Source of the DNA: Planctomyces sp. SH-PL62 | GTDB taxonomy: Bacteria; Planctomycetota; Planctomycetia; Planctomycetales; Planctomycetaceae | DNA: 64,000 bases | Reading direction: 5' to 3' | Assembly: GCA_945893045.1 (NCBI GenBank) | Contig: CAMDEA010000007.1 | Span: 1 to 64,000, forward strand | Part shown: positions 2,976 through 32,808 of the stretch, piece by piece | Position numbering within the stretch: position 1 is the first letter of the stretch | How the letters are laid out: each line of letters starts with the position of its first letter | The notes under the pieces: model-generated | What the model was told of the DNA's origin: nothing | Databases searched by the model: none | The model's input: the letters and a program-made list of their open reading frames with translations, nothing else | Made by a program: the position numbers and the translations under genes

Positions 2976-3108
2976 GGCTCCCTCCCGAACTGAGTCCGAT
3001 TTCCTTTAGTCGGTCGCGTAAATATCTCAACGGAGTCCGTGAGGGAAGTCCGCTTGAGTGAGTCGTGGGCTCACGACGCACTTTGCACCGGCGGCGGTTC
3101 CGGATTAC

Positions 3109-3346
3109 GCCCCCATCGACCTTGCGTCGATGGAGCGAAAGATCGAGTGCTAATCAGCGACACCACGAGTCGTTGTTAGACCCCATCCGCCTCGTGCGGA
3201 TGGTGAATCAGATTTTTCGACGTTCTTCACCCAGTGATCTTCTTCACCATCCGCACGAGGCGGATGGGGTCTAAGAATCGGCCAGATAACGCCACATCGG
3301 TTAGCACGCCATCGGACGCTCCATCCAGACAAGCTGGATGGGGGCG
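3109..3346. repeat. nested palindrome (one inverted repeat inside another)
   Basis: The 2976-3375 gap holds no gene. Inner arms 3177-3207 and 3243-3273 are 31-bp perfect inverted repeats. They are flanked by outer arms 3109-3153 and 3301-3346, which match each other at roughly three quarters of positions and each contain a small hairpin (CATCGAC..GTCGATG and CATCCAG..CTGGATG). The younger, perfect element seems to have inserted in the loop of an older, decayed one. Confidence 0.8.
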
Positions 3347-3375
3347 GAAACAATCGCAAAGTGCGTCACGCTCTC

Positions 3376-5622
3376 TCACCGTCGGGTCACGCGAGCCGGG
3401 GTCAGTTGTTCCGCAACATCGAGATCGCGAAATGGAGCCGGAAGCTTCGCGAGCAGACGCTCGTCGCGCTTCCCCGTCCGATGCTCGCGCTGCGCCGTCA
3501 GCCAGCGCTCGCTCCGTTCCAGCAGCCAATGGCCGAGCGGTCGCGGTGCCTCGGCGATGGACACGGTCGCGAGTTGGCCGGGACCGAGCAATCGGCTCGT
3601 CGCGCGATCCAATGACACGTAGCCGACGACGTGCGGTTCGAGCAGCTCTTGCGAATCGCGGCCGCGCTGTGCGGGTTGACTCCCCGAAACTTTGGTCGCG
3701 ATCGGACCACCCGCGCCGGCACACAGCGCGGGGTGCGGTGCCTGGACTGTCGCTCGCGGTTCGAGTTTGTGCAGTGCGCCATCCGCCGTGAAGCCATCCT
3801 CGGTCAAACGCACGCGGACGACATGATCCAGACTCAGCGACGCGGCCTCAAATTGTTCCGGCGAGATGAGCACTCGGACTTCTTTTTCCTCGGCATCGCC
3901 GATCACCAGCAGTTCCCGTCCCGGTGCGACGTAGCTGCCGATCAGCGACGGCAAATCGGAGGCGGCCACCACGCCGGACAGCGGAGCGCGGATCAGCAGT
4001 TGATCGCACAGTTGATCGAGTTCCCTCAGTCGGGTTTGCAGTCCGGCGCGGTTGTCGTCTTCGGCATTGCGGGCCGCGAGTTCTCCCGCCTGTTGAAACG
4101 AGCGGCCCCGCAGTTCCGAGCGTTCAATCTCAATCACCAACTGTCGGCGCTGCGATTCGAGTTCATGATTGCTCAATCGAATCAGCAGATCACCCGCGCG
4201 CACGGTTTGTCCGGATTCAATCAACACTTCTTCGACGAAGCCGGGTGACTCGGCGCGCACGGTCGCGGCATCGACCGACTCAATGACGCCGGGAAGCGCG
4301 ATCGAATGCCAGGCCGTCACCGACGTCAGCAGCCACGTCAAACTTGCGGCGGAACACGCGACGATGGCCGCGAAACGCCTTCGTCGTGGCCGCTCGAACG
4401 CCGTGCCGACCAGCACATACCGCAGTCCGCGCCACAGCGGATGCAGGAACCATGCGAGAACCGCCCCCGCTGCCAGCAAGATGCCCGCGCCTTCGAACCA
4501 GACGGCGGCGGCGAGGATCAGCGAGACGCTCACCACCATGCGCCACATCGCCGACGTCACGCCATAGGCCGCGACCAGCCAGGTCCGTCCCTCTGGCCAA
4601 GTGGGCGATGTCGATTTCACTCCCAACAGCCAGCGCTTGGCCAAGTGGGTCAACCATTGCTGCCCGTGAGCCGCGAGATTCGGCAGCTCCAACCAATCGG
4701 CCAGAATGTAGTAACCATCAAATCGCATCAGCGGATTCGCGTTGAACAGCAGAGTCACGACGCTGGCGGTCAGCATCAGTTGCAGCAGATGCTGACGCAG
4801 CAGCTCGTCGTGCGTGTTCGCCCAGAGCATCGCCGCGAGCGCCGCGATCAGCAGTTCCGCGAACATCCCCGCCGCCGACGCGACGATGCGTCGCCACTTC
4901 GGCAACCGCCAGGTCGAAGTCAGATCGACATAAGGAATCGGCGCGAGCAAGACGAAGACGATCCCCGCCTCGCGCACTCGTCCACCGAACCGCACACACG
5001 CCAATCCGTGCGATGCTTCGTGAACGATCTTCAGTCCCATTCCCCACAACGCGATCCACAGCCAATTGTGCGGCGACAGAACGATCGCCGATTCCCGCCA
5101 GAGTTGCTCGGTGTGCGGCGCGAGTTGCCACACCGCACCGGCCATGACCGCCAGCCACAGCAGCAACCCGCCCAGGCTAAACAATCCGCCAGCAATCGAA
5201 TCCAAAACTTCCAGCATGGGCTGCGGACAACCCAGCGGCAGTCGAATGCTCAGCGGGTTCAGCCGTCGCGCGAGCTTCGCGGCTGCGCCTTCATCAGCTC
5301 GGCCATCTTGGTCGCGCGGCCCGTCCGCCGCGAGCAGCTTGGATTCCACCAGCCAATGACAGATGACTCCGGCCTGTTGTTCATCGAGCGCCTCGCGGCC
5401 GAGCACGGCGACGGTTTGCGTGATCGCGTCACCCACCGTCGTCCGGCCGTCAAGCAGTGACAGAAACGTGTACTCCGGCAGCCCAATCCGAAAGTACGCC
5501 CCACGGCTGGCGTCTTCGAGGACGTAGCATTCGGCCCCGCCATACGACTGCCAGGTAAACGACACTTCCTCCCGCAGTCGCGGTCGAAGCTGTCGCAGTT
5601 CGTAGGTGCGGATGTCGTTCAT
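3376..5622 (-). CDS. PqqD-like / M50 zinc metalloprotease / HlyD fusion
   Basis: A 748-residue membrane protein of the 'putative peptide zinc metalloprotease' type. Numbering here starts three residues upstream of the chosen ATG. Residues 20-100 resemble a PqqD-type winged helix (peptide recognition in RiPP pathways). From about 150 come several TM segments with the site-2-protease zinc motif H204-E-A-S-H208 and the second ligand motif NANPLMRFDG (297-306; Asp305). A TM near 430 is followed by a HlyD/biotinyl-lipoyl half-motif (VRAESPGFVEEVLIESGQ), a coiled coil, a second lipoyl half and a beta-barrel. The start at 5622 (MNDIRTYELR) is preferred because the next upstream codon is TTG. It is the last gene of an export-like cluster, separated from GAF-HlyD by a 391-bp repeat-bearing gap. 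Likely role: processing and/or export of a peptide across the envelope (inference). Confidence 0.85.
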   Translation of the reverse strand: MNDIRTYELRQLRPRLREEVSFTWQSYGGAECYVLEDASRGAYFRIGLPEYTFLSLLDGRTTVGDAITQTVAVLGREALDEQQAGVICHWLVESKLLAADGPRDQDGRADEGAAAKLARRLNPLSIRLPLGCPQPMLEVLDSIAGGLFSLGGLLLWLAVMAGAVWQLAPHTEQLWRESAIVLSPHNWLWIALWGMGLKIVHEASHGLACVRFGGRVREAGIVFVLLAPIPYVDLTSTWRLPKWRRIVASAAGMFAELLIAALAAMLWANTHDELLRQHLLQLMLTASVVTLLFNANPLMRFDGYYILADWLELPNLAAHGQQWLTHLAKRWLLGVKSTSPTWPEGRTWLVAAYGVTSAMWRMVVSVSLILAAAVWFEGAGILLAAGAVLAWFLHPLWRGLRYVLVGTAFERPRRRRFAAIVACSAASLTWLLTSVTAWHSIALPGVIESVDAATVRAESPGFVEEVLIESGQTVRAGDLLIRLSNHELESQRRQLVIEIERSELRGRSFQQAGELAARNAEDDNRAGLQTRLRELDQLCDQLLIRAPLSGVVAASDLPSLIGSYVAPGRELLVIGDAEEKEVRVLISPEQFEAASLSLDHVVRVRLTEDGFTADGALHKLEPRATVQAPHPALCAGAGGPIATKVSGSQPAQRGRDSQELLEPHVVGYVSLDRATSRLLGPGQLATVSIAEAPRPLGHWLLERSERWLTAQREHRTGKRDERLLAKLPAPFRDLDVAEQLTPARVTRR

Positions 5623-5813
5623 GCGCTGCAAGCTGGCGAAAAATGGAGGGCAAAAAATAGGGAACTCAGAAATGTTGGGGCTTGGCCGTCTTTCACTCTC
5701 CGTCCGTCATTTTGGGTTCTTCGAGATTTGAAGCGGCTTAGTGACAGCGTTGAGGCCATCGTCGAGAGTTTTTCTGAGGAATCGCAGAGATGCGTAATTC
5801 TTGGTTTGAGTCA

Positions 5814-5902
5814 TCCGTGTGCGCGTTCCGATCCGTGTGCGAAGTGCGTTGGCCCTCAAATCGAACGCACTTCGCACACGGATTGGAGCGTCCACACGGA
5901 TC
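5814..5902. repeat. inverted repeat, about 38-bp arms, in the M50-GAF/HlyD gap
   Basis: Left arm 5814-5851 and right arm 5865-5902 pair with only a few mismatches around a 13-bp loop; the inner 21 bp (CCGTGTGCGAAGTGCGTT side) are perfect. Weaker pairing continues outward to about 5785 and 5930. The gap 5623-6013 has no gene. A hairpin this long would be expected to reduce read-through into the M50 gene. Confidence 0.8.
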
Positions 5903-6013
5903 AATACAGTTTCGGAATCGCCACGGAAAACTCAGTCCATCAAGTGCCAGACTTTTGCGACTTGCCACTCCAGACCGGGAAGCTCCCCATTCGCCGGCCT
6001 GTCTTTGATTTCC

Positions 6014-7564
6014 TCACCAAGGCAACCACCGCCGGACCTGGTCGAACGCCTTATGAAACAGATTCCAAGCCAGCGGGTGTCGCGGTCCAAACACGACGGC
6101 AGTGCCGCGTTGGCCGGGACGCAGTGCCTCATTCGGATTCGGCAATTCGACTTCGGCGACGAACACATCGGCCGAGTCGCGAATCTCGGAACGGGGACGG
6201 ATGCGCGACAACGTTCCGCTGACCGGTTCGCTCAGCCGGCCATCGAAACGCAACTCAACCGTGTCACCGACGGCGATGTGCCGATAGTCCGCCGCGGGGG
6301 CTGCGACTTCGACGCGCAACTGATCGAGCGGTCCGATCTCAAACAACACATGCCCGGTCTCGACCGGTGCTGATGAGAGCTTGTCGATGCTGCCGCTCAG
6401 CACGATGCCGTCGAGTGGTGCTCTCAACTCCAACAAACTTTCGCGACGCCGCAACAATTCGACCTTCGCGTCGAGCTGCTCGACTTCCAGCCGCGCGAGT
6501 TCCGACTTGCTCAAGTCGCCGCGAGCCAAGCTGCTGTCACGTTGCTGTTGAGCCTGCCGGCGATCGGCTTCGAGTCCTGCCAATTCCCAGCGCACTTCGC
6601 GGCCATCCATGCGAGCCAGCGTCTGCCCCACACGGATGGTGTCTCCCGGTTGCACGAACGACGTCTCGATCAAGCCTTGATGCGGAGCCACCACGAAGCG
6701 CCGCTGCATCGGCTCGATCACCACACGGCACGAAATGCGATACGGCACCGGCCAGGCCATCGCGGCAACGACGATCACGGAGCCAGCGGTCATGATCGCC
6801 AGCGCACTCCGGCCGATCGCGCGGCGAAGCTGCGTCCACGAACGGCGTAACCAACCCCCTTCGGCACGGGCGCTCAACGCCAGTGTGCTCACGAGACAGT
6901 CGGCCGTCGTGCGCAGAAATCGCAGACGCGCCGGATCGTGCGCGGCGGCTCGTGACCCGGAGATGATCAACACTCCCCTGACGCGGCCGTTGTCCTGTAA
7001 CACGAAGGTCGCGGCAGCATCGACACGCGAGGCTTCCACCAAACGGCGATGCGCCAGCAAGGCATGTCGATTCGTTGAGCCTAGCGGCGGCCACGAGCCG
7101 TCCGTCTGACGCGCGGCGGCTTCGTCGGCGACCGATTGCAACAGGTCGGCGGTCTCAGATCGTTGATCGAACGTCGGCAGGCCGGAGATCGTTCGCAACG
7201 TGCAACGGCCGGAGGAACTTCGCCAGGCCAGTGCAACGCGGTCGAGTTGCAAGTGAGCGGCAAGTTGTTCGACGACAACACGACTCGCGGCCGTCAGACC
7301 ATCCGCACGCGCGGCGCGTGAGTTCAAATCCAGAATCGCCGCCGTGGCGGCAGCCAGATCGTGTGGCAGGTTTTCAACGTGCGCATGCGAGTGGGGCGGC
7401 GTCAGCCCCCCGGTGAATTCGTCGCCACCAAACCGGGGGACTGACGCCGCCCCGCTCGCCTGCGTGGTGATTTCCTCAAGTCGCCTTAGCTCTTCAACGT
7501 CGCGTTTCGACAAGACGGGCACGTTGGAAACGTGCCCCACGTTCGGAGGATCGACCGTCGGCAT
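6014..7564 (-). CDS. GAF-domain / HlyD periplasmic adaptor fusion
   Basis: A 516-residue protein. The N-terminal 65 residues are largely encoded by repeat DNA (NVGHVSNVP at the start, then GGLTPPHS). Residues about 80-240 look like a GAF sensory domain (VVEQLAAHLQLDRVALAWRS...; FVLQDNGRVRGVLIISG). One TM (about 265-285; SALAIMTAGSVIVVAAMAW) is followed by a HlyD-type adaptor: lipoyl half-motif (VVAPHQGLIETSFVQPGD), a short coiled coil, the second half (LRAPLDGIVLSG), then beta-barrel to the end. The ATG at 7564 follows the GGGGAG of the upstream hlyD stop region. The arrangement puts GAF in the cytoplasm and the adaptor in the periplasm, so it could gate the export system in response to a ligand (inference). 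Confidence 0.8.
   Translation of the reverse strand: MPTVDPPNVGHVSNVPVLSKRDVEELRRLEEITTQASGAASVPRFGGDEFTGGLTPPHSHAHVENLPHDLAAATAAILDLNSRAARADGLTAASRVVVEQLAAHLQLDRVALAWRSSSGRCTLRTISGLPTFDQRSETADLLQSVADEAAARQTDGSWPPLGSTNRHALLAHRRLVEASRVDAAATFVLQDNGRVRGVLIISGSRAAAHDPARLRFLRTTADCLVSTLALSARAEGGWLRRSWTQLRRAIGRSALAIMTAGSVIVVAAMAWPVPYRISCRVVIEPMQRRFVVAPHQGLIETSFVQPGDTIRVGQTLARMDGREVRWELAGLEADRRQAQQQRDSSLARGDLSKSELARLEVEQLDAKVELLRRRESLLELRAPLDGIVLSGSIDKLSSAPVETGHVLFEIGPLDQLRVEVAAPAADYRHIAVGDTVELRFDGRLSEPVSGTLSRIRPRSEIRDSADVFVAEVELPNPNEALRPGQRGTAVVFGPRHPLAWNLFHKAFDQVRRWLPW
7387..7460. repeat. GGCGAGCGGGG-family palindrome inside the GAF-HlyD gene
   Basis: Arms 7387-7414 and 7432-7459 belong to the same family as the palindromes at 44375-44472 and 46487-46591 (core GGGGCGGCGTCAGCCCCCCGG). 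Here it is read in frame and encodes residues near GGDEFTGGLTPPHSH in the linker before the GAF domain. Confidence 0.8.
7517..7538. repeat. short palindrome GGGCACGTT-GGA-AACGTGCCC
   Basis: Perfect 9-bp arms around GGA, within the first 20 codons of the GAF-HlyD gene, encoding the peptide NVGHVSNVP. It is a second repeat remnant in the same N-terminal linker. Confidence 0.65.
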
Positions 7565-7568
7565 GATC

Positions 7569-8458
7569 TCACTCCCCAGCAAGCGTCAGCCGTTGCCCGC
7601 TGCGCAGGCGACCGTCGCGGTTGTCGAGGATCACATCGACTCGGACGAGTCCGCTTTCGGCGTGCGTCACCGGAGACACGAATTCGACCTCACCCGTCAG
7701 CGGCTTTTCGTCGGCCTGGCCAGACAGCTTCACGCGCTGTGCTTTGCTGAAGCGGACGGACTGTTCGGCGGGGACATAGAACTTCGCCCGCAGCCGGTCG
7801 AGCCGCACGACGGTGAACAGTTTCGGTTCGGTCAACGAGACGAACTCGCCGGGATCGCGATAGATCTCGGTGACAACGCCGTCGATCGGGCTGCGGATCA
7901 TGCGTCGCTGCAACTGAACCGCGATCTTCTTCACTTCCAAGCGATCGACGGCCAGCATCTCCTCCGCCAACTTGAGTTTCGCCCGCGCCGATTCGGCATC
8001 GGTCTTCGCCCGCGAAAACTCATCGCGACTCCCGCCCCCCGTGCGGTTGATCTCGGCCAGCGCGTTGAGCCGTTGCTGCTTAAGTTCCCATTCCGCCGTC
8101 GCCGCTTCGATGGCAGCAGTCGAATCGGCCTTGTACTGGGCGATCTCCAATGTGGCTTTGAGATAATCGTCGTCGAGCGTGCCCAGCACCTCGGCCTTCT
8201 TCACCGTTTGACCAAGCTCGACACGAACATCCTGCACGATGCCGGACTCGGCGGCGGCGACGTCGATGGTTTGATAAGGCTCGGTGAAGCCCTCGGACCG
8301 CTTGGGGTCGATGCGGTTCGCGCCGAGGAGAAACAACAGCAGGAAGAGAATCGGAAATTGATAATTGGAAATTGGAAATTGGAAATTGAAGACCGACCGG
8401 CTTCGTCTCTTCCAATTTTCAATTTCCAATTTCCAATTTCCAATCTCCCACTTTTCAT
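7569..8458 (-). CDS. HlyD-family periplasmic adaptor; 5' end out of frame across a heptamer array
   Basis: Membrane-fusion protein: one TM (FPILFLLLFLLG), a first lipoyl half-motif (VAAAESGIVQDVRVELGQ), a helical hairpin of about 90 residues, a second half-motif (MIRSPIDGVVTEIYRDPGE) and a beta-barrel. About 290 residues, short for the family. The best start is ATG 8458: it overlaps the secA-like stop (TGATG) and has GGGGGAGG 7 nt upstream. From that ATG, however, the frame differs from the HlyD frame; the span is 890 nt, not a multiple of 3. The shift falls in the 7-bp repeats at 8352-8447. Gain of one unit or loss of two restores a single reading frame. Without that, translation would need a weak start such as TTG at 8429. 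Either phase-variable, slippage-dependent or mutated; the downstream frame is intact. Confidence 0.8.
8352..8447. repeat. inverted pair of heptamer arrays at the 5' end of hlyD
   Basis: Plus-strand 8352-8388 is about five copies of GGAAATT (one degenerate, GATAATT); 8410-8447 is about five copies of CCAATTT/TCAATTT, the reverse complement of the first. A 7-bp unit changes the reading frame with each gain or loss. The array lies directly between the SD/ATG and the TM segment of the hlyD product. Confidence 0.9.
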
Positions 8459-10416
8459 CACGATGCCTCCCCCAGCACTCCGGCCAGCACATCATCCAGC
8501 CAGTGATCGTGCTCGACCATCTTGCGGCGCAGTTTGAAGCTGTGTTGTTCGGCCAGGAGTTGGAACTGTGATACGAGCTGGGCGTAGTTGTCGTGGACTT
8601 CGCCATCTCGACCGGCGGTCTTGCGGAGTCGGCTGGCCAACTTGGGGGCATAGCGCTGCAACAACTCGTCGTCGCCGGAGACGAAGAAGCGGCTGAAGCC
8701 GAAGTCCCCTTGCCGTCCGGCTCGACCGGCGAGCTGTCGATCGACGCGGCGCGAGTCATTCCGTTCGGCCCCGATGACAAACAAGCCGCCGACCGCGAGC
8801 GCGCGGACATCCGGTTTGATGTCGGTGCCGCGGCCAGCCATGTTGGTGGCGACTGTGACCGCTCCGTAGCGGCCGGCGTTGGCGATGATCGCGGCTTCGT
8901 CGGCGTCTTGCAGACCGTTGAGGACTTCATGGCTCAGCTTCAGCGAGCCGAGCAGCATCGACAACAGCTCGCTGTCGGCAATCGTCCGCGTGCCGATCAA
9001 CACCGGTTGTCCGCAGCGATGCCGCTCGATGACTTCCGCCACGATTGCACGCAGCTTGGCGTCTTTCGAGGCGAAGTAGCGGTCGGGCAGATCGACACGC
9101 CGGCAAGGTTGATGCCGGGGAATCAGCAGTGTCTTCAAGCTGTAGAACTCGGAGAACTCCCGATCCGCTCCTTCCGCGGTGCCGGTCATGCCGCAGATCG
9201 AGTCGTACAACTGATAGAAGCGCTGACGAGTGATTCGCGCGGACGAACTTTTCTCCGCACTGATTGCGAGGTGATTGTACGCCTCGACCGCTTGATGCAG
9301 CCCGTCGCGCCACGAGCGTTCGCTGAAGATGCGGCCGGTCTTTTGATCGACGAGTTGCAGGTCGCCGTCGCGGATCACGTAATCGACTCCCCGGTGCAGC
9401 AGATACTCGGCATGCAGCGCGTTGAGCACAAACGCATCCCACGGCCGGCGCAGGTCGGAAAGCGGATGCCGTTGCAGCTCGGCGAAGATGTAATCGTGGC
9501 CGAGCGCGGTCAGCCGCAGCGTGCGGTTCGGAGCATCGAGATGGAAGTGTTCGCCGCGCACCATTTCGTCCGCGAGATCGCGCGCGGCGAGGTACGGCGT
9601 CGGAACCTCTAAACCGTGGCCCCCTTCGCTGAGGATCAACGGCGTCAGCGCTTCGTCAATCAACACGCTGTCGAGTTCGTCCACGACCGTCATTTGCAGA
9701 TGCGGTTGCAGCAGTCCGCTGTCATTCGACTCGCGACCGGTCAGCGTGTCGAGCACGTTGACTCCCAACGTTTCGCGCGGTCGTGCTCGCAGCGTGAGTT
9801 GATCGCGAAGGTAATCGAAGCCGAACTCGTAACCGGTGCCGTACACGACGTCGGCTTTGTAAGCGGCCTTCTTGCCGCGCGTGTTGTTTTTTTCGGGAAG
9901 CAGCGCGGAGGAGAGGCCCAGCCTCTCAAACACCGGCTGGAGCTGTTTCCAATCCCGTTCGGCGAGGTACGCATTGGGCGTGGCGACATGCGTCTGCCGG
10001 CCGTCGAGCCACGCCAAGAACGCCGGAATCGCCGAGATGATCGTCTTGCCTTCACCGGTCGCCATCTCCGCCGCTTGACTGTTCGCCAGCGCTAAACCCG
10101 CGAGCAATTGCACGTCGTGATAGCTCAGCCCGCGCGTGCGCCGCACCGCCTCGCGGACGATCGCGGTCCCCGCGACTTGTTGTTGCTGCCGATCTTTCGA
10201 CGACATGGTCGAACCGAAACGCTCGGCAGCGTCACGCAAAGTCGTGGCGAGATCACGCAGATCGCGATCGCTCGCGGATTCGAGTTCCCGCGCTCGCTGC
10301 TTCACTTGCTGCACGACGTCCCATTCCTTCTTCGATGGTCCGCGCGCGAGATCGGCGTTCCGCGAGAAAGCTCGACGGGACGGCAGCAACTGAATGTTGG
10401 AGGTCATTTGAGACAC
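8458..10416 (-). CDS. SecA-like DEAD motor ATPase, C-terminally shortened
   Basis: A 652-residue relative of preprotein translocase ATPase SecA (usually 830-900). Present in order: NBD1 with Walker A MATGEGKT (118-125) and DEAD-box-type VDELDSVLIDEALTPL (245-260); the preprotein cross-linking region with DGLHQAVEA (371-379) and GMTGTA (409-414); NBD2 with TNMAGRGTDI (524-533) and QLAGRAGRQG (561-570). The protein ends about 80 residues later, where SecA would begin its long scaffold helix. It therefore appears to lack the helical wing, the two-helix finger and the zinc-binding tail. Not the housekeeping SecA, judging by size and context (tolC upstream, hlyD overlapping downstream). Probably energises an export route using the neighbouring adaptors; that is inference. 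Confidence 0.88.
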   Translation of the reverse strand: MSQMTSNIQLLPSRRAFSRNADLARGPSKKEWDVVQQVKQRARELESASDRDLRDLATTLRDAAERFGSTMSSKDRQQQQVAGTAIVREAVRRTRGLSYHDVQLLAGLALANSQAAEMATGEGKTIISAIPAFLAWLDGRQTHVATPNAYLAERDWKQLQPVFERLGLSSALLPEKNNTRGKKAAYKADVVYGTGYEFGFDYLRDQLTLRARPRETLGVNVLDTLTGRESNDSGLLQPHLQMTVVDELDSVLIDEALTPLILSEGGHGLEVPTPYLAARDLADEMVRGEHFHLDAPNRTLRLTALGHDYIFAELQRHPLSDLRRPWDAFVLNALHAEYLLHRGVDYVIRDGDLQLVDQKTGRIFSERSWRDGLHQAVEAYNHLAISAEKSSSARITRQRFYQLYDSICGMTGTAEGADREFSEFYSLKTLLIPRHQPCRRVDLPDRYFASKDAKLRAIVAEVIERHRCGQPVLIGTRTIADSELLSMLLGSLKLSHEVLNGLQDADEAAIIANAGRYGAVTVATNMAGRGTDIKPDVRALAVGGLFVIGAERNDSRRVDRQLAGRAGRQGDFGFSRFFVSGDDELLQRYAPKLASRLRKTAGRDGEVHDNYAQLVSQFQLLAEQHSFKLRRKMVEHDHWLDDVLAGVLGEAS

Positions 10417-10433
10417 AGTGAGGACTCGATGTT

Positions 10434-10498
10434 CGTAGCCTGACTCTCCGAGTCGGGCGTCCGACTCGGCAACGCCCGACTCGGAGAGTCGGGCTACG
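10434..10498. repeat. 27-bp inverted repeat between tolC and the secA-like gene
   Basis: Arms 10434-10460 and 10472-10498 (CGTAGCC(T/C)GACTCTCCGAGT...) pair with one mismatch. The right arm provides the TAG stop codon of the TolC-like gene, so the element overlaps the end of the coding sequence. Confidence 0.85.
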
Positions 10499-12605
10499 GA
10501 TCGCGGCGCAGGACTTTGTTTTTGGTGGATTGCCAGAAGGACGCTTTCGGTTCGACTCGTCCGCCCGTGGGCTTCAAGGTCGGACCGTTGGGTTCGTCGT
10601 CGATGGGTGGAGGTGGCGTTGGGAGTTCGCGGCGCGGCGTTTCTTCAACCGGTGTTGGCACGTACTGCCCATCGCGCTGGGACTCGATCGGCTTGCCGTG
10701 CTTGTCCACGATCAGCGTCGGCAGACCGTCGACACAGGCGCGGCCCCACGAGACTTGTTCGGTTTGCAACAGCTCGCCGGTGGCTTTCTTCACGTTCCAC
10801 AGCGCCAGGTTGTAGGTCACTTGAGCGGTCAGGAAGTTGAACTCATTCGTCGCCAGCCGCTGTTGCGCGAGCAGCAAGTTGTCGAGCATCAGGCTGGCAT
10901 TGCCGTCCTCGCCGGGGAGTCGCTCGAAGCGTTGTTCGAGGTACTGCAGCTCGGCCGTGCTGGCATCCATCGCGCGGAATTGCGAGAGCATCTCGGCCAG
11001 CGCCGTCTCGACTTCGCGGACGGAGACTTTGACTTCCAGTTGCAGCGTGTTGAGCGTCGTCTCGTATTGATTGCGAAGCTGCCGCAGTTCCATTTCGCGG
11101 CGTTCGCGGCGCGCCTGCGGAGCACGATTGCCCAACGGCATCTCGAATTGCACCCCGACCGTATAGCCGGGAGCACCGCTGGTGAACGAGTTGTTGAACG
11201 CGGAAAACGCATTGTTGGGTTGCAGGCCGGCGACGTACGTCTCGGTGACGAGGTTGAGCATCGGCAGCACTTCGTTCTTGGACATGTTCAGCCGCGTGCA
11301 GCCGGCTTGAATCTGCCGCAACGATTGATTGACCTCCGGCCGCGTGGTCACGGCAGTCGACAGGGCCAGCGACATGTTCAGCGGAGATTCGCGGACGGTC
11401 GGAGTTTCGGTCGGCATCAGTTCGACAGTGTCGTAGTCACCGAACGCCGGATCGTTGACGAGCGCTCGAATCCGGTCCTCGGCATTCTTCACCCCCATCT
11501 GGCCGCGAATGACTTGCGACCGCCGCGTGGCGACTTCGGCTCGCGCACGCAGAATCTGAGTACGGACCGCATCCAACTGCTGTCGTTGCTTGAGTAGCGC
11601 CAACGTGTCCGCAGCCCGTTTCAGCGATTGCAGTTTCTGAGCGAGGTTCGCGCGTTCGAGATACAAGCCCCAATAGGCGCGCAGCACTTCCAGCAGGTGT
11701 GACTGCAACTGGCGCGAGAACTCATCGGTGGCAATCGCGGTATCAAGCTGCGCGAGACAGATCAGGCTCTCGTTGTAAACCTGCCCGCTGCCGCGTAAGA
11801 GCGGATGCGTGTAACCGAGCACCAGCCGCGAAGTGCCTTGCGGGTTCGGCGTGAAGAACGTCGAGTTCGTCCGCTGCCAGCCAAGCTGCTCGCTGAACTG
11901 CAACGTGCCACCGTCGCGGGTCTTCTTGCGCAGTCCACCTTGGCTCGTGAACTGGTCGTTGAGGTAGCGTGTCACCGTGGGCCCCCCTGAGGGACCGGTG
12001 TTGTCGGTTGTCAACGTGTTGCCGACGGGGTCGTTCAAATCTTGCCAACGTGTGTCGAGGAACGCGGTCCAGTCGAAAGCCGCATCAGCTTCGACGATCG
12101 ACGTCTCGCGGATCAGCGGCAGGTCGCTGAAGACACGCACCTGCGACGAATGGCGAATGGCTCGAATGAGGATGTCTTCGATCGTCAACGAGATCGGGGT
12201 CGTCGTCTCACGCAACGGCGCGGCGACGAACACCGCCCACCAGGCGGCCGAGAGGTCTGGCACCTGCGCGTCGTCCTCGACATTGGCGGTCTGCGACTGA
12301 CGTGGGATTGGAGCGAGCGGCGCAGAGTCCTCCGGAGCAGGAAAGTCTGACGGTGGAGCAAACGTGGCCACTCGCTGTGGAAACGGCTGCGGCTCGTGTT
12401 GCGGCTCTTCATTGGCGATGAAGCCCAGTTGCACCGACGCTCGCGGATCGAATCGTGGCGTCTGGCTCGACGGGTTTTGAGCCTGTGGACCGGCCCACGC
12501 CGAATAGCTCAGCCATGCGGCGGTGAGCACTCCGCTCCAGCAAATCAGTTTGACTCGCGACGACCAGCCTGCGCGGGCCGCGGCGCTCTCACTGCGCGAA
12601 TACAT
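10494..12605 (-). CDS. TolC-family outer-membrane efflux protein
   Basis: A 703-residue outer-membrane factor. The start at 12605 (MYSRSESAAARAG) is chosen because it follows AGGGA and immediately precedes the export signal (KLICWSGVLTAAWLSYSAWAG); an upstream in-frame Met at 12740 would bury that signal. A proline-rich, probably disordered stretch leads to the paired helical regions typical of TolC: a first half with a beta segment around FDWTAFLDTRW, a second around MPTETPTVRESPLNMSLALS, and long coiled coils with RRERREMELRQLRNQYETT. The C-terminal tail is Pro/Thr-rich. First gene of the cluster with the SecA-like ATPase, the HlyD adaptors and the M50 protein; it would be the outer-membrane channel. 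The family is firm, the partnership inferred from order. Confidence 0.87.
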   Translation of the reverse strand: MYSRSESAAARAGWSSRVKLICWSGVLTAAWLSYSAWAGPQAQNPSSQTPRFDPRASVQLGFIANEEPQHEPQPFPQRVATFAPPSDFPAPEDSAPLAPIPRQSQTANVEDDAQVPDLSAAWWAVFVAAPLRETTTPISLTIEDILIRAIRHSSQVRVFSDLPLIRETSIVEADAAFDWTAFLDTRWQDLNDPVGNTLTTDNTGPSGGPTVTRYLNDQFTSQGGLRKKTRDGGTLQFSEQLGWQRTNSTFFTPNPQGTSRLVLGYTHPLLRGSGQVYNESLICLAQLDTAIATDEFSRQLQSHLLEVLRAYWGLYLERANLAQKLQSLKRAADTLALLKQRQQLDAVRTQILRARAEVATRRSQVIRGQMGVKNAEDRIRALVNDPAFGDYDTVELMPTETPTVRESPLNMSLALSTAVTTRPEVNQSLRQIQAGCTRLNMSKNEVLPMLNLVTETYVAGLQPNNAFSAFNNSFTSGAPGYTVGVQFEMPLGNRAPQARRERREMELRQLRNQYETTLNTLQLEVKVSVREVETALAEMLSQFRAMDASTAELQYLEQRFERLPGEDGNASLMLDNLLLAQQRLATNEFNFLTAQVTYNLALWNVKKATGELLQTEQVSWGRACVDGLPTLIVDKHGKPIESQRDGQYVPTPVEETPRRELPTPPPPIDDEPNGPTLKPTGGRVEPKASFWQSTKNKVLRRDP

Positions 12606-13033
12606 CTCGACGATTCCCTGGCGAGGGCAACGCGAACACAGCGGCGTCTCGTGACGCAGCGCGCACGCCGTCAGGAATCGTCTTCGGAATGAGGGGTCAC
12701 TCGCCCCTAGCCTCGCACCGACCGGCCGGTCGGCGTTCACAAAACTGTCGGCACGTCACAGCTAGCTTGAGCAACTCCGGCATAAGCGGAGTCCTTACAG
12801 AACCCGCACCGGGGAGAGTCACCGTCCGCCGAACCGGCGGCACAATCGGAACCCACGGACGATTCCGAAAAGTGATCGGCCAACGAGTTCGATGTGCGAC
12901 AAGTCACATAGGGTGGTCGAGTCATCGAGACCCACCACGAGCCACGCTGGCGATTGCAACTCCCCTCTTCATTCCTCTGGCCCCAGTCCTCTGCCAAAAC
13001 GGTTTGGCAGAGGAATGGGGCCAGAGGAATGAA
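12606..13033. other. gene-free leader region of the export cluster
   Basis: No coding sequence is convincing in this 428-bp gap between the FtsK-like gene and the TolC-like gene. It should contain the promoter of the five-gene cluster. Its left-hand end is unexceptional; the part next to the FtsK-like stop codon is the palindrome at 12968-13033. I could not identify a promoter with confidence. Confidence 0.6.
12968..13033. repeat. near-perfect 66-bp palindrome
   Basis: Arms 12968-13000 and 13001-13033 (TTCATTCCTCTGGCCCCA... mirrored) meet almost without a loop. It abuts the TAA stop of the FtsK-like gene at 13034-13036. Long enough to form a hairpin in RNA or a cruciform in DNA. Confidence 0.88.
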
Positions 13034-16000
13034 TTACAGGATTGTGAATTGCGACAAGTCGTCACTCACGGCGACTGGTTCGGCAATGTCATCGGCGATG
13101 GCCTTTGGTTGCAGCCGCGAGGCGACATCGGCCAGCCATTCGGCCGTGGGCGGACCATAAGGGCGGAACTTTTCGTTCGTGCCTTGATCGACCGAGTGCA
13201 GGATCGCTCGGTTCGGGCCGAGCTTGCTGGCCAGCGGGCCGTCGATCAGGTTGCTCGAATCGGACGCGCTGAGTTGGAAGACGATCCGGACTTCAAACTC
13301 GCGCAGCGTCTGCGAACTGAACCAGCGGCTGACGTTGTTATATGTGTCGCTCCAGACCAGCGTGTGAATCCCGAAGTTGGGGCCGTTCTTCAGCAGGTCC
13401 GTGAATTGTTTGCTGGTACTGACCTTCTTCTCGCCGCCGCCGAAGCTGAAGCCCATGTCGTCGTCGGATTTCTTCAGATCGCGGAAGCGGCCGAGATTGA
13501 AGATGACGACGAAGATCGGCGTGTCGTCACGCGAACCGGATTGTTCGCGGCGAGCCATCTCGGCCGTGAGCGTCGCCAGCACGGACGGGGTGTCTCGCGG
13601 TTCGCCGATCTGGACGGCGTGCGGCAGCGCGGCTTGCAGTTCCTTCCAAGTCTCCGCTGAAACGCCGCCGAAGTTGCCGTCGAGGATGACGAACTGCGGT
13701 ACTGGTTGTCCTTCGATTTCGGTGGTTGTGATAGCGGCTTCCGGCTCTCGGCTCTCGGCATTCGGCCGGACTTGGCAGGCGAGGCTGATGATGCTGGTGG
13801 CCAGCAACCCGACCGTGGCGAGATCGCTTTGACCGACGACCAGCAGGTTCTGGCCTCCTTGCGCGTGAAAGCGAATGGTCGTCGGGTCTTTGATCGCAAC
13901 CGCTTCGCCGAGCCACGCGACGCGCTCCAGCAGGGGGGCCTCCCACTGCGGCGCGTCGATCAGTTGCGAGAGATCGACATTGCGGCGCGGGTCGGCCGGG
14001 ATGTTCCCTTCAAACACAATCGCGGGAGGCATCCGCACGTGCCGCTTCTCAGTCATTTGCTGCACCCGACCGAGATGAAAATCGCGGCGGTCGTCTTCCA
14101 GCCACGCGATTTGGAACGGATGGTTTCCTTCCAGCATTCCGTTGGCGTCGTTGTAGATTGCCTCGCCCGGCCGAGTCAGCAGCCGCGCGGCGGTGTTGTC
14201 TTCCGAGAGAATCAAGTGCGCGTCGCTCTCACTGCATTGCAGCGCGATGCGAACCGCCATTTGGCCGAGCGTGCTGCGTGCCAGCGAGTACGCTCCGCCG
14301 AGCGTTTGCGAACCGAGCAGCACATGAATGCCGAATGCTCGGCCTTGCCGCACGAGCCGGTCGAGCAGCAGCGCGGAGGTTTGCGCGTGCTTGTCGTCCT
14401 CGACGAAGAACTCCTGGAATTCGTCCACGACCAGCAGGATGCGGGGCATCTCCTCGTCCGGCCGAGCGCCGCGGAAGCCGGCGAGGTCTTGCACGCCGAC
14501 ATCGCGGAACAGATCGCCGCGCTCCTTTAGGATCGCGTCCAGCCGTTCGAGCACGCTGACACCGAACTCGCGGTCGCTTTCGATCGCGATGACGCGTGCG
14601 TGCGGCAGTTCGTGCGTCGCATAGGTTTTGAATTCGACCCCTTTCTTGAAGTCGATCAGATAAAAGTGAAGCTGATCCGGCCCGTAATGCAGCGCGGCGT
14701 TCGTGATGAGGATGTGCAGGAACGTCGATTTGCCAGAGCCGGTCTTGCCGGCGATCAACACATGCTGGGACGTCCCTTTGCCCAGTCGCAGGTGTTGCAG
14801 CTTCGTCGCACCCGCTCGGCCGAGTGGCACATCGAGTCCGCTGCGCGTGTCGCTGGCCCACAACTGCGCGTCCTTCGGCGCGATGCGTTCAAACGCGACT
14901 TCGACGCGGCGCGCGTCCTTCGATTCGTGCCCGGCCGCTTTGACGAGCTTTGTGAACAGGTCCGGCTCCGGCGGCGCATCGAGGATCAATGGCAGAGCTT
15001 TCAACTCGTCATCCGAGGCGGTGAAAGCGGTTCCGTTCCAATCGAAGACGGTCGCGTTCGTCGCCAGATCATGCAGATCGAAATTGAGCGGCAAGCGAAG
15101 CTTCGTATCGACGCTGGCCAGCAGGAACACACCGCAGCGCGGGCCGCTGGTCGCGATGCTCACCAGTCGCCGTGACGCGGCTTCACTGAAGTTCGCGGGA
15201 AAGTTTGCGACGACCAGGATGTGATAGGGCTCGGCGACTTCGCCGGCGTGTTCGTTGTATTCCTGAATCGAACGAAACTCGTTGCGGAGATATTTTTGGA
15301 ACACGTTCTCCATGTGCTCGGTCAGGTCGGAGAGTCGGTGTTCGATCTGGCCTTGCTCGGTCCAGATGCGGCTGGTGATGAGCAACTCGTCGTAATCGGC
15401 CAGGTGCATGAACGCGGCGAAGTTGTCGCCCAGCCCAACCGGATCAAGGATCGTGAACCGCACCTTGCCACCGGGCAGCGTCGTCAGGAACCGCAGCATC
15501 GCGTTCTGCAACACTCCAACCGCGATCTCGCGACCATCATCCCGCGCCTTGAGCAGCAACGACGGTCGCTCTGGAAACGGCAAACAGGCCGGGAGTCCAA
15601 ACGACAACCGTTCGGGAACGAGTTGCGGTTCTTTCGGCACACCGTCGGGCACGTTGGACAACGCGACCGAGAACTGTCCCAGTCGGATTCCCGGCGGAAT
15701 CTTCGGCGGTAATTTGAGCGGCCCACTGCCGAGCGTCGCCCAATCGCGAAACCATTCATCGACAATTTGATTCGCCGCGTCGGCGTCACGTTCCAACTGC
15801 TGCCAACCTTCGAGCCATTCCTGAGCCATTCGCAGCCAGGTTTGCTGAAACCGCTTGGTGTTGTTCTCGACTTCGGAGTCGTGATTCTGCTGATACTTCT
15901 TGAGATCAAACTCGAAGCGCGTTTTGAGCTTCGTCAACCGTTGCGGAAATTCGGCATGCGCCCAGGCCATCTGCTGATCGCGCCGCTGTGTGATCGCGCC

Positions 16001-28730: not shown

Positions 28731-28800
28731 GTAGGACGGGTACTCTTGCCCGTCTTCGTTCGTGGAAGCAATCGCCGACGGGCAAGAGTGCCCGTCCTAC
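28731..28800. repeat. 24-bp inverted repeat immediately before the RTX gene RBS
   Basis: Arms 28731-28754 and 28777-28800 (GTAGGACGGGTACTCTTGCC...) differ at one base. It ends where AAGGA, the ribosome binding site of the RTX gene, begins (28801-28805). In mRNA the hairpin would sit directly against the RBS and could affect initiation. Confidence 0.85.
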
Positions 28801-28812
28801 AAGGAACAATCC

Positions 28813-31800
28813 ATGTCCCTGACGTCTTGGTTGCAATCGTTACGAATGGGCACGGGCTTGAATGGGGGGTCGGGTGTTCGATTTTTCGGAATAGGCCGAC
28901 GAAACCGCTTGCCACGACGACACGCTGGGACGGCCAATTTCGAAAAATCGAACACCCGACCCCTGAGCGGTGAATGCCTGGAAACAAGGGTTCTACCGAC
29001 CGTAGCGGCCCTGCTGATTGGTACGGAATTGAACGTCGTGACGGACGGCGCGGACTCGATTACCGTGCGGACCAACGTTGCCTTGCAGGTGGAGATTCTG
29101 GCCAACGGCGTCGTACTGAATACGGCTCCGACGGTGAATGCTTCGGCTATCGGAAAATTGGTCGTGACCGGCAGCGATGCGGCCAACGTGATCGACCTGA
29201 GTGGCGTGACGGCGGCGCAGTTCACGCTCCTGCCGAGCATCTTGGTCAACGGAGGCGACGGCAACGACAGCATCACCGGCTCGCCCGATTTGCCCAACAG
29301 TCTGTTGGGAGGGGACGGGACCGACGTGCTGTTGGGCGGCGGCGTCAGCGACTCGCTGGATGGCGGCAACGGAGCGGACACGCTGACCGGTGGCTTGGGC
29401 AATGATACGTTGCGCGGCGGCAATGGCATCGACTCGCTGATCGGCGGCGGCGGCAACGATCAACTCGATGGAGGTGACGGAGCCGATTCGCTCAACGCGG
29501 GGGACGGCGATGACAACGTGCTGGCCGGCAACGGAGCCGACAATCTCGATGGCGGTCTCGGCAACGACACGCTCAATGGCGACGGCGGCAACGACACCAT
29601 CAACGGCAACGTCGGCAACGATTCGATCCTGGGGGGAGCAAACAACGACTCGCTGCTCGGCGGTGATGGGAACGACACGCTCGACGGCCAAGCCGGGTTC
29701 GACAAGATCAACGGCGAGGCCGGTGACGATTCCCTGAACGGCGGTGACGGCAACGACAGCATCTCCGGCGGCCTTGGCAATGACACCGCGAACGGCAACG
29801 CGGGGAACGATTCGATCTTGGGCGATGCTGGGAACGATTCGCTGATTGGCGGCACCGGCGACGACATCATTCAGGGGGTGGATGGTGATGACGTCGGCAA
29901 CGGGCAAAGTGGCAACGACACGCTGATCGGCGACTCCGGCAGCGACACGTTGGACGGGGGCGCGGGCAATGATCTCGTCAGCGAACAAGACCCGACGCTC
30001 ACGCTGCCGCCGACGCTGTCGGTCTCGAATGTGAACGTTGCCGAAGGGAGTCTCGGGACGGTGAATGCCAATTTTTCCGTGAGTTTGTCGTCGCCCAGCG
30101 CAGCGATCGTCACGGTCAATTACTCGACCAAGAATGGCACTGCCATCGCGGGCAACGACTTTGTGACACAAGCCAATGTTCTGACGTTTCAGCCCGGTCA
30201 GACATCCAAGACGGTGAGCGTGGCCATCAACGGAGACCTGCGAGGTGAAGTCGATGAAGTCTTTTTCTTGGACCTCGACACACCGACGAATGCCGTGCTG
30301 CTCGCGCCGACAGGGACCGCCACGATCCGCAATGATGATGGCCTGACGACCAACCGGCTGTTGGGTGCTTTGACCCAATTCCCCGCCGAACTGTACGAGG
30401 TCGATACGACGACCGCCGCCGCGTCATTCATTGGCAACATTGGAGTTGATTTTGTGTTGGGACTGACGGCGAGTCCCGCGAATGTGATCTATGCCACTCG
30501 TCGCGATCCACTCGTCGGATTGATCACCGTCAACACGACGACGGGACAGGGAACACTCATTGCCGAACTCAATCCGCAGCCCACCGAAGTCATTGAAGGG
30601 GACTTGGCGTTCGATGCGGCGAACAACGTGATCTACGCTTCCTTCAGCGGCCCCTCGATCAATCTCTACACGATCAATCCGCTGACCGCTGCGACGGTCA
30701 ATCTCGGTCCGCTGCTGTTTGGCGGTGTCCCGCTGCCGCCGCAGGCCAACAACATCAACATCGACGGGATGGTGTTTCGCGGCAATCAACTTTATGCGTA
30801 CATCCCTGACAACATTCCTGGTGTCGGTGACTCGCTGCTCCGAATCGACGTGAATACTCGCGCGATCACCAATGTCGGGCCGTTTGGAGTGGACCTGCCG
30901 CGCGGTGGCGGTGGATTGGCTTACGATGCGATTGATGATGTCTTTTACGTGACCTCGTCATCGCAATCCGCCATCAATGCCGGACCGATTTATCGAGTGG
31001 ACCCGTTGACGGGTGCCGCCACGATCGTCGGGGTCTCGAACACACCGATCGGGGTTCCGGGATTTCGCGGCATGACTTTTGAGACGGTCCCGGTGACCGC
31101 GCCGGTGTCACTGTCGATCTCCGATGTGACCGTCAGCGACGCCAGCAGCGCGCCGGTGACGGCCACATTGACCGTGACTCTCTCGCGCCCACTCGTGACG
31201 TTGGTCACGGTCGATGCCACGACTTTGGCCGGTTCCGCAGTGGCCGGGACGGACTTCACTCCAATCATGCAAACGCTGACCTTCTTGCCGGGACAAATCA
31301 GCCAGACGATCACGGTTCCGATCTTGCCAGATTCACTGGCCGAACCTTCCGAATCGTTTTTCGTCCGACTTTCCAATCCGAGCGGGTCACTAATCACGGA
31401 CACCCTTGGAACGATCACGATTTCAGACGACGGCCTCGGCAACTCGCTGTTCGGGGGCAGTGGACGGGATACCGTGATCGGCGGCTCTGGTGACGATCTC
31501 CTGAACGGCGGCGACGACGCCGACCTTGTGTTGGGGCTGGCCGGTAATGATTCGATCCTGGGCGGGGCCAGCGCCGACACGCTTATCGGCGGTGACGGCA
31601 ACGACACGCTCAATGGACAAGGTGGTTCCGACGTCAGCGACGGCGGCGCGGGCGATGATCAACTCATCTGGAACGGCGCGAGCGACGGCAAAGACACGCT
31701 GTCGGGAGCCACCGGGTTCGATGTTCTCACCGTGAATGGGACCGGCTTGAGCGACTCGCTGACGATCGGCCAGGCGCTGGTCGCTGACGACGTGATCCCG

Positions 31801-32808
31801 CGGCTGACGGTGACGGACAGCGGTATCACGTTGGTCGTGTCGAACATGATCAGCCTGATCCTCAACGGCAACGGCGGCAATGACTCGATCACGATTGGCT
31901 CGATTCACCAAGTGGACGGGTTCGTGCTGACGGTCAATGGCGGAGACGGAAACGATTCGCTCAGCGCGGCGAATGCGTTGTTGGGAGCCGTGAAGCTGCG
32001 GCTCAACGGAGTTGCGGGGAACGACACGCTCACCGGCAGCGCCGATCGCGAAACGCTCGACGGCGGCGACGGGGATGATTTCATCAGCGGCGGGAAGGGG
32101 AACGACTCGCTGCTGGGAGGACTCGGCAACGACGTGCTGAATGGTAATGACGGCAACGATTCGCTGCTCGGCGGCGACGGCGACGACGCGCTGCGAGGCA
32201 ACGCCGGCAATGACACGATCACCGGCGGACTCGGCAACGACAGCGTCTTGGGCGGCGATGGAAACGACACGGCGACCGGCGACGCGGGAGACGACACACT
32301 CAGCGGCGACGCCGGTAACGATTCGCTCAACGGCGGCACCGGGGCCGACACGCTGACCGGCGGCGACGGAGCCGACACGCTCGACGGCGAAATGTTCAAC
32401 GATTCGCTGACCGGTGGGTCCGGCGACGATTTGATTCGCGGCGGCGACGGCGATGACACGCTCGACGGCGGCGACGGCAACGATTCGCTGATCGGTGGCG
32501 ACGGAGCCGATCAATTGCTCGGCGGCAACGGCAACGACGCAATCAATGCCGGTCACGGCAACGACGTGGTCAACGGCGGAGCGGGCAACGACACACTGCT
32601 CGGCAGCGACGGCAATGACACACTGCGCGGTGGCTCCGGCAATGACGTGCTGCTCGGCGGCGACGGCGACGACAACCTCGATGGGCAAGGAGGGACGGAC
32701 ACGCTCGCGGGGAACGAGGGAGTGGATACGCTCAACAACACACTCGGCGATCTCATCAACGAAACGTTCGCGTTGCCAGCGGCGCTGCTGGCGGCGTTGG
32801 AGGCGTAA
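28813..32808 (+). CDS. large RTX / Calx-beta extracellular Ca-binding protein
   Basis: A 1331-residue secreted protein. The ATG at 28813 follows AAGGA (28801). The first 60 residues hold a basic, repeat-derived stretch and then ECLETRVLP, the 'LExRxL' motif of the planctomycete extracellular signal domain. Residues about 150-390 and 930-1320 are dense RTX nonapeptides (GGxGNDxLxG), which fold as calcium-filled parallel beta rolls. Calx-beta modules sit at about 405-510 (LSVSNVNVAEG...) and 780-890 (LSISDVTVSDASS...), with a beta-propeller-like segment between (LTQFPAELYEVDTTT). Probably a surface adhesin or matrix protein secreted unfolded. No protease or lipase domain is visible. The N-terminus is interrupted by a palindrome (28866-28963). 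Confidence 0.88.
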   Translation: MSLTSWLQSLRMGTGLNGGSGVRFFGIGRRNRLPRRHAGTANFEKSNTRPLSGECLETRVLPTVAALLIGTELNVVTDGADSITVRTNVALQVEILANGVVLNTAPTVNASAIGKLVVTGSDAANVIDLSGVTAAQFTLLPSILVNGGDGNDSITGSPDLPNSLLGGDGTDVLLGGGVSDSLDGGNGADTLTGGLGNDTLRGGNGIDSLIGGGGNDQLDGGDGADSLNAGDGDDNVLAGNGADNLDGGLGNDTLNGDGGNDTINGNVGNDSILGGANNDSLLGGDGNDTLDGQAGFDKINGEAGDDSLNGGDGNDSISGGLGNDTANGNAGNDSILGDAGNDSLIGGTGDDIIQGVDGDDVGNGQSGNDTLIGDSGSDTLDGGAGNDLVSEQDPTLTLPPTLSVSNVNVAEGSLGTVNANFSVSLSSPSAAIVTVNYSTKNGTAIAGNDFVTQANVLTFQPGQTSKTVSVAINGDLRGEVDEVFFLDLDTPTNAVLLAPTGTATIRNDDGLTTNRLLGALTQFPAELYEVDTTTAAASFIGNIGVDFVLGLTASPANVIYATRRDPLVGLITVNTTTGQGTLIAELNPQPTEVIEGDLAFDAANNVIYASFSGPSINLYTINPLTAATVNLGPLLFGGVPLPPQANNINIDGMVFRGNQLYAYIPDNIPGVGDSLLRIDVNTRAITNVGPFGVDLPRGGGGLAYDAIDDVFYVTSSSQSAINAGPIYRVDPLTGAATIVGVSNTPIGVPGFRGMTFETVPVTAPVSLSISDVTVSDASSAPVTATLTVTLSRPLVTLVTVDATTLAGSAVAGTDFTPIMQTLTFLPGQISQTITVPILPDSLAEPSESFFVRLSNPSGSLITDTLGTITISDDGLGNSLFGGSGRDTVIGGSGDDLLNGGDDADLVLGLAGNDSILGGASADTLIGGDGNDTLNGQGGSDVSDGGAGDDQLIWNGASDGKDTLSGATGFDVLTVNGTGLSDSLTIGQALVADDVIPRLTVTDSGITLVVSNMISLILNGNGGNDSITIGSIHQVDGFVLTVNGGDGNDSLSAANALLGAVKLRLNGVAGNDTLTGSADRETLDGGDGDDFISGGKGNDSLLGGLGNDVLNGNDGNDSLLGGDGDDALRGNAGNDTITGGLGNDSVLGGDGNDTATGDAGDDTLSGDAGNDSLNGGTGADTLTGGDGADTLDGEMFNDSLTGGSGDDLIRGGDGDDTLDGGDGNDSLIGGDGADQLLGGNGNDAINAGHGNDVVNGGAGNDTLLGSDGNDTLRGGSGNDVLLGGDGDDNLDGQGGTDTLAGNEGVDTLNNTLGDLINETFALPAALLAALEA
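28866..28963. repeat. palindrome inside the RTX signal region, 23-bp perfect arms
   Basis: Arms 28866-28888 and 28941-28963 (GGGGTCGGGTGTTCGATTTT...) are exact reverse complements with a 52-bp loop. The whole element is translated, giving roughly residues 18-51 (GSGVRFFGIGRR ... ANFEKSNTRPL), between the basic start and the LETRVL export motif. The GGGGTC ends match the style of the 1440 element. Confidence 0.88.

Follow-up and report, generated by a model that had tools for sequence, protein, structure and literature searches.

The DNA considered here, positions 1 to 64,000 of contig CAMDEA010000007.1 of Planctomyces sp. SH-PL62 (the whole 64,000-nucleotide stretch is called the window), carries on its minus strand five genes whose products would make up an export module: in order, TolC, SecA-like, HlyD, GAF-HlyD and M50-HlyD. 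A first-pass annotation had listed the five in this order and on one strand, and open reading frame (ORF) calls and Pfam matches bear it out; HlyD_3 is matched in three of the proteins. Our concern is the probable connection of this module with giant proteins that begin with an LExRxLL (LEPR-XLL) leader. Genes were called as the longest ORF, and spurious ORFs are present in GC-rich loci. The parts of the cluster are:

10494..12740, minus strand: TolC/OEP outer-membrane channel gene (Pfam OEP, 88.8 bits, in two stretches); translation more probably begins at an ATG at 12605
8458..10416, minus strand: SecA-like ATPase, 652 residues (Pfam SecA_DEAD 259, P-loop_SecA 182, SecA_PP_bind 81 bits)
7569..8455 (upper coordinate approximate; frame open from 8930 to 7569), minus strand: HlyD-type adaptor (HlyD_3 68.9, RND_mfp 124 bits)
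6014..7582, minus strand: GAF-HlyD adaptor (HlyD_3 60.2 bits; GAF 22.8 bits, cut-off 22.4)
3376..5631, minus strand: fusion of PqqD-like domain, M50 intramembrane protease and HlyD (HlyD_3 33.3 bits; M50 21.6 bits)
5242..5631, minus strand: PqqD-like domain (of the type of the RiPP recognition element, RRE) at the N-terminus of the M50 protein, suggested to read the leader (profile matches in PDB)
5008..5022, minus strand: HExxH zinc motif, residues 204-208 of the M50 protein (H204, E205 and H208 invariant, 22/22)
4717..4743, minus strand: N-x-N-P-(x)4-D motif, residues 297-305 of the M50 protein (N297, N299 and D305 invariant, 22/22)

The N-terminal domain of the M50 protein appears PqqD-like, an assignment supported by its profile, whose three best PDB matches are all PqqD or PqqC/D chains (5sxy, E=0.0016; 5vrd, E=0.033; 3g2b, E=0.11); the match to TfuB1 (6jx3) is weak (E=0.98). 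Pfam PqqD is matched at E<=0.1 in 7 of 23 members, at best with 2.3e-6, and the window's own member is not among the seven. The HExxH and NANP..D motifs that had been noticed earlier are present and invariant in the homologues, H208 being found in 54 of 55 M50-HlyD proteins; conservation of N299 and D305 is biased in alignment A3, because the scan pattern contained both, and is free of that bias in alignment A1. The Pfam Peptidase_M50 score is below its cut-off of 27.2, and the two site-2 protease motifs, HExxH and the distal N/D, are both in place. The NCBIfam model daptide_HExxH (NF041824) matches residues 38-390 with 143 bits (cut-off 300), and the YydH/LiaK model reaches 31 bits (cut-off 225). 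PqqD-type domains bind leaders in systems that make ribosomally synthesized and post-translationally modified peptides (RiPPs), and M50 proteases cleave in the membrane or close to it; it is this family knowledge that casts the PqqD-like domain as reader and the M50 domain as cutter.

The SecA-like protein keeps nucleotide-binding domain 1 (NBD1), the preprotein cross-linking domain (PPXD) and NBD2, with the Walker and motif VI residues. It ends at the start of the scaffold helix, with nothing beyond: its alignment to PDB 6t4h covers residues 37-611 of a 781-residue chain and then stops, that to 1m6n stops at residue 602 of 802, and the best PDB matches extend at least 170 residues past its C-terminal end. 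The absent region presumably comprises the wing domain, the two-helix finger and the C-terminal region of SecA. The short length is a family trait, since all 23 aligned SecA-like proteins, the window's included, span 603 to 705 residues; the motor motifs are intact in 22 of the 23. At one locus (L082, 11057-13009) the SecA-like protein has lost Walker A, though the module there has its M50, GAF-HlyD, HlyD and TolC genes.

The association of these genes is not new: Kamneva, Poudel and Ward published it in 2015 (PMC4452313) as a module of secondary SecA_DEAD proteins that is related to type I secretion. Their paper describes a SecA_DEAD protein that lacks the wing/scaffold region or retains a fragment of it, encoded with M50-HlyD, GAF-HlyD, HlyD and sometimes OEP; it records that the ABC gene is missing, proposes SecA as the ATPase, the M50 protein as a possible pore and GAF as sensor or regulator, notes some SecA_DEAD proteins that are not co-encoded with the module, and calls its broader role "completely unknown". 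The window's module has the same composition: a wing- and scaffold-less SecA_DEAD beside M50-HlyD, GAF-HlyD and HlyD. The present analysis adds to it the connection with LEPR proteins, the PqqD-like domain, DUF3467 and the observation that M50 often has no SecA gene next to it; the terms PqqD, giant, LEPR and DUF3467 are all absent from the main text of PMC4452313.

The surroundings of such modules were surveyed from both ends. The regions fetched from Planctomycetota were centred on short or possibly short SecAs in 40 cases and on M50 proteins in 20. An M50 gene lies within ~9 kb in only 18 of the 40 short-SecA loci, which weakens the case for the SecA-like motor as the essential replacement of the ABC ATPase; the fetched short SecAs of the window's own family, the window's excepted, stand apart from M50. 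A larger set of 80 loci consists of the best 80 of 554 found with the M50 alignment alone. GAF-HlyD accompanies M50 in 67 of them, another HlyD in 59, DUF3467 in 15 and TolC in at least 17, the last count being a lower bound because few sequences went into the TolC model. An ORF with ABC-type motifs occurs anywhere in 5 of the 80 loci and in none of the other 75; the first-pass annotation would have given up its proposal had a separate ABC transporter accompanied the adaptors in every genome, and that is not what these loci hold. No ABC family was matched on the 10 window ORFs scanned with Pfam, the rest of the window having been scanned in part.

ORF clustering in the first neighborhoods disclosed giant LExRxLL proteins next to module loci and also next to SecA-like genes that stand alone. 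An LExRxLL ORF is present in 20 of the 80 loci, for whose retrieval nothing but the M50 sequence was used. With counting confined to ORFs that are long or cut by a locus end, and module-overlapping ORFs removed, there are 20 N-terminal motif matches, in 20 loci, where the motif frequency in the interior of these ORFs would give 0.26, by a pattern sharpened on leaders that come partly from these same 80 loci; a looser pattern yields 46 matches against 4.2 expected, on a set that includes loci fetched by the motif. Matches in L150, L174 and L181 were dropped as probable spurious ORFs, and the recount is still 20/80. Short-SecA loci without a nearby M50 gene hold an LExRxLL ORF of at least 400 residues in 6 of 22 cases (L059, L060, L063, L064, L066 and L070); a seventh, L053, was doubtful and is not counted. 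Comparison of coordinates in 16 gammaproteobacterial genomes with a high-scoring M50 protein shows a LEPR gene adjoining the module or at most ~15 kb from it in nine (G441, G299, G278, G320, G413, G319, G394, G223 and G399) and on another contig in the other seven.

The leaders have the consensus E-x-L-E-x-R-x-[LM]-[LFY]-[SD]-[AG]. In 57 LExRxLL ORFs, a set that includes some loci fetched by the motif itself, the leader often has a basic stretch; an E stands two residues ahead of the L in 46, and L-E-x-R-x is mostly followed by [LM]-[LFY], then by S, D, N, T or A, and then by A or G in 53. The two small residues that follow the leucines have the look of a site for cleavage. A hydrophobic core, defined as a 12-residue stretch of mean hydropathy >=1.9, is found in 0 of 29 leaders (loci L106-L205) versus 14 of 18 TolC N-termini taken as control; one of the 57 leader ORFs (L045) does have a hydrophobic stretch. 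A leader lacking the Sec core implies that some unusual export route is needed. Of these proteins, 10 of 11 scanned have domains such as DUF4347, Ig-like, cadherin-like, laminin-G, PKD, cyclophilin, PPC and RTX, and in that scan the eleventh (L199) had no domain match. The leader resembles the LEPR-XLL (Planc_extracel) motif, which is regarded as a putative signal for export of surface proteins in planctomycetes, as stated with reference to Studholme et al. 2004 in a paper (PMC8567305) whose proteomics section on T. immobilis reports 20 motif proteins detected, 8 of them solely in fraction S3.

Genome-wide co-occurrence was scored with the NCBIfam model NF012209 and the Pfam model PF07595 of the motif; the genome sets for the Fisher tests were transcribed by hand from score listings, and the M50-HlyD cut-offs (100 bits in Planctomycetota; 580, 400 and 180 bits in Gammaproteobacteria) were set after the score lists had been seen. 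Among 223 gammaproteobacterial genomes, 22 have the motif (NF012209, E<=0.01). All 16 genomes with M50-HlyD at >=580 bits are motif-positive, versus 6 of the 207 others (Fisher 7e-20; this p-value and the next ignore the relatedness of the sampled species), or 15/15 versus 6/207 when the centre G223, itself selected by M50, is left out. At 400 bits, 18 genomes have both, 3 M50 only, 4 the motif only and 198 neither; at 180 bits the corresponding numbers are 18, 10, 4 and 191. In 197 genomes of Planctomycetota, M50-HlyD (>=100 bits) is present in 20 of 23 motif-positive genomes (NF012209 over its cut-off) compared with 42 of 197 overall (Fisher 5e-13), and in 8 of 9 at the stricter NF012209 E of 0.001. 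PF07595 over its own cut-off accompanies M50-HlyD in 3 of 4 cases (the exception is G147); at E<=0.05 it was rejected as a test, being too noisy (it matches 40/197 genomes, and 2 of 14 control genomes). The motif is found in 27 of 33 hand-picked M50-positive genomes, 11 of the 33 already having shown it in the fetched locus; of the remaining 22, 16 have it. NF012209 matches none of the 14 control genomes in the strict runs on Planctomycetota, Gammaproteobacteria and Alphaproteobacteria, one in the hand-picked run, and four (one over cut-off) at lax E in the Planctomycetota run. In Alphaproteobacteria, 9 of the 11 M50 genomes other than the chosen centre were read directly: a leader like LEPRMMFDA begins a long ORF in six, located <=5 kb from M50 or its HlyD neighbors (L207, L208, L209, L213, L214/L223 and L206/L221); one genome (L212) has its leader on another contig and two (L210 and L215) have none. 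Leaders of this form fall short of the NF012209 curated cut-off, the one of L207 reaching 14.1 against 17.

What the sequences show is the genes themselves, motor and protease motifs that are conserved, a resemblance to PqqD, and LEPR genes that co-occur with M50-HlyD and often lie close to it. On this ground stands a reading that we hold to be somewhat probable: the cluster would encode an exporter that spans the envelope and is dedicated to giant proteins with the LExRxLL leader, which are probably bound to the surface. In the cytoplasm, the PqqD-like domain of M50-HlyD would bind the leader, which is non-hydrophobic and often basic; the chain would be threaded by a SecA-type motor, either the SecA-like protein of the module or, where that is missing, perhaps the housekeeping SecA; the M50 domain would cut the leader near LL-[SD]-[AG]; and the HlyD, GAF-HlyD and M50-HlyD adaptors would pass the chain to the TolC channel. 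Leader binding, cleavage, the motor role and export itself are steps that we infer. The earlier suggestion that the PqqD-like domain recognizes the substrate fits well with leader-bearing partners. A more encompassing proposition strikes us as an even bet: an ABC-less system, found in Planctomycetota, Verrucomicrobiota, Proteobacteria and others, whose PqqD-type domain, fused to intramembrane protease and adaptor, reads the non-hydrophobic LEPR-XLL leader, and which sends out proteins as long as ~14,000 residues, aided in many lineages by a finger-less SecA.

Several facts weigh against the exporter reading. No inner-membrane pore was identified for the module, and no clear LEPR gene adjoins it in the window. 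The SecA-like gene is found in 38 of the 80 M50 loci (several of them cut by contig ends); in Gammaproteobacteria with a high-scoring M50 protein, short SecA is present in 10 of 16 genomes and absent from 6, and it is found in 0 of 9 alphaproteobacterial M50 loci in the stretches that were fetched and searched. In those six and nine cases the work would fall to the housekeeping SecA or else to a different motor. Some LEPR proteins carry RTX repeats and can be read as ordinary type I substrates. The match of motif to module is also imperfect in both directions. M50-HlyD at >=180 bits is without an NF012209 match in 10 of 28 gammaproteobacterial genomes, and LEPR proteins occur without M50-HlyD at >=400 bits in G418 (a protein of 7373 residues), G295, G332 and G439 (the last two with ORFs of <200 residues). 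In Planctomycetota three motif-positive genomes (G153, G041 and G124) lack M50-HlyD, 22 of 42 M50-HlyD genomes have no NF012209 match, and M50-HlyD is present in 17 of the 40 genomes that PF07595 matches at E<=0.05. Of 227 alphaproteobacterial genomes, 5 have the motif, 12 have M50 and 2 have both, one of these being the chosen centre.

The most substantial competitor is the version of the first-pass annotation, which is close to that of Kamneva et al. Here the SecA-like ATPase stands in for the ABC transporter of a tripartite exporter whose cargo is proteins or peptides generally. We think it possible, though the odds are against it. The SecA-like gene accompanies M50, HlyD and TolC in the window and M50 in the 38 loci just mentioned, ABC-motif ORFs are missing from 75 of 80 loci, the motor motifs are kept in all but one of 23 proteins, and short SecA goes with high-scoring M50 in Gammaproteobacteria (10/16, versus 1/12 genomes with a lower-scoring M50, 0/4 with the motif only and 0/20 others; the search covered 52 of the 223 genomes). 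Against this stand the 42 of 80 loci in which SecA is not beside M50 (some cut by contig ends), its absence from 6/16 gammaproteobacterial genomes and 9/9 alphaproteobacterial loci, and the loss of the region past the scaffold helix, which in SecA contains the wing and two-helix finger. This frequent absence weakens the notion that the SecA-like motor replaces the ABC motor: the first-pass picture of an export module with TolC, HlyD adaptors and an M50/PqqD-like protein and with no dedicated ABC transporter stands, while the essential SecA-like replacement in it does not stand as firmly. The SecA-like protein would still be the best motor candidate wherever it is present.

That LEPR proteins and the module merely share hosts and neighborhoods as surface genes, with no export relation between them, seems to us unlikely. 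In its favor, genes for giant adhesins may neighbor exporters that serve other proteins, RTX repeats occur in some LEPR proteins, and motif and M50 do not go one to one in Planctomycetota (22/42 without a match); yet 16/16 versus 6/207 within one class and adjacency in several phyla speak against it, and a leader without a Sec core needs an unusual route in any case. Least probable by far is a route of peptide maturation and export like that of RiPPs, in which the substrates of the PqqD/M50 protein would be small precursor peptides such as those of daptide and epipeptide systems. The PqqD/RRE resemblance and the daptide_HExxH and YydH/LiaK matches (143 and 31 bits) speak for it, but both peptidase scores are below curated cut-offs (300 and 225), and the sole cluster of small ORFs common to at least 3 of 61 neighborhoods (ORFs >=60 residues clustered) is DUF3467, whereas the recurrent partners are giant LEPR proteins; the peptide cargo envisaged earlier finds no support in these clusters. 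DUF3467 itself is a small protein encoded in 15/80 M50 loci (e.g., L185, 7625-8047), mostly adjoining GAF-HlyD, and is a possible chaperone (a SecB-like role was considered) or accessory factor.

Candidate substrates of the proposed exporter exist in the window's own genome, which has LEPR-type matches on other contigs (G000:C55, C131 and C123 among them): neighboring ORFs of 1439 and 1766 residues (cyclophilin, RTX) and proteins of 1473 and 2018 residues. Within the window there is one further lead:

28762..32808, plus strand: RTX/Calx-beta protein, 1348 residues, possible substrate (HemolysinCabind 336.6, Calx-beta 109.6 bits)

Near its N-terminus stands GECLETRVLPT, by eye an E-x-L-E-x-R-x-L-P variant of the leader; since neither PF07595 nor NF012209 matches it, it is treated as a lead only.

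The boundary between the SecA-like and HlyD genes is less simple than the one-base overlap that had been proposed. The sequence TGATG at 8460-8456 does exist, so that the SecA-like stop codon overlaps an ATG by one base, but this ATG opens an 85-codon dead frame that never reaches the HlyD body. The HlyD body is read in a different frame, the 5' part of which lies inside an inverted repeat, and for this reason the upper coordinate of the gene is approximate:

8353..8448, no strand assigned: 36-bp inverted repeat of AAATTGG-like units (arms 8353-8388 and 8413-8448, 89% complementary, 24-nucleotide spacer)

In a relative with 77-78% M50 identity to the window (L106), the same junction (8335-8480) holds a different repeat-like sequence, of AGTGC-like units. 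Two further overlapping AAATTGG-type units, with one mismatch each, lie at 21580-21603 of the window. Scans of 3000-13100 for promoters and terminators found fewer sites than in shuffled sequence. Upstream of the module, at 13034-17158, is a gene for an FtsK/SpoIIIE-type ATPase of 1374 residues (110.7 bits), with partial similarity to EccC/EssC that is below curated cut-offs. A lower-scoring gammaproteobacterial locus (L217, 5915-12431) has a divergent M50-HlyD gene preceded by an 836-residue ORF that begins MRKLEQRVVLDAA and followed by an ABC-type ORF of 622 residues; it is perhaps a subtype with an ABC exporter.

The link proposed here joins two orphans: an export signal, described in 2004, that had no machinery to go with it, and an exporter-like module, described in 2015, that had no cargo. 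If it is true, both can be tested together, and environmental bacteria have a route for bringing very large proteins to their surface. PMC8567305 contains neither HlyD nor SecA, and its passages on the motif name no machinery; PMC10952558 names PF07595 once and SecA not at all; and LEPR-XLL is mentioned once each in PMC10868602 and PMC9611531. The papers listed for the module and those listed for the motif do not overlap, in searches whose scope left out most subscription papers and all bioRxiv preprints, so that a prior statement of the link is possible.

Set beside known systems, the module has in common with type I secretion (HlyB/HlyD/TolC) the HlyD-type adaptors, the TolC-type channel and a candidate cargo that is giant and sometimes contains RTX repeats. 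It differs in that the window's module has no ABC transporter, in its three adaptor genes, one of which carries an M50 and another a GAF fusion, and in the N-terminal leader without a hydrophobic core on its proposed substrates. With the daptide and YydH/LiaK metalloproteases the fusion protein has in common an M50-type core, the daptide_HExxH similarity beginning at residue 38, with scores under the cut-offs; here, however, the protease is fused to HlyD, its neighbors are others, and its putative cargo is giant rather than small. The LEPR-XLL/Planc_extracel motif, finally, would be the leader on the proposed substrates of modules of the window's type.

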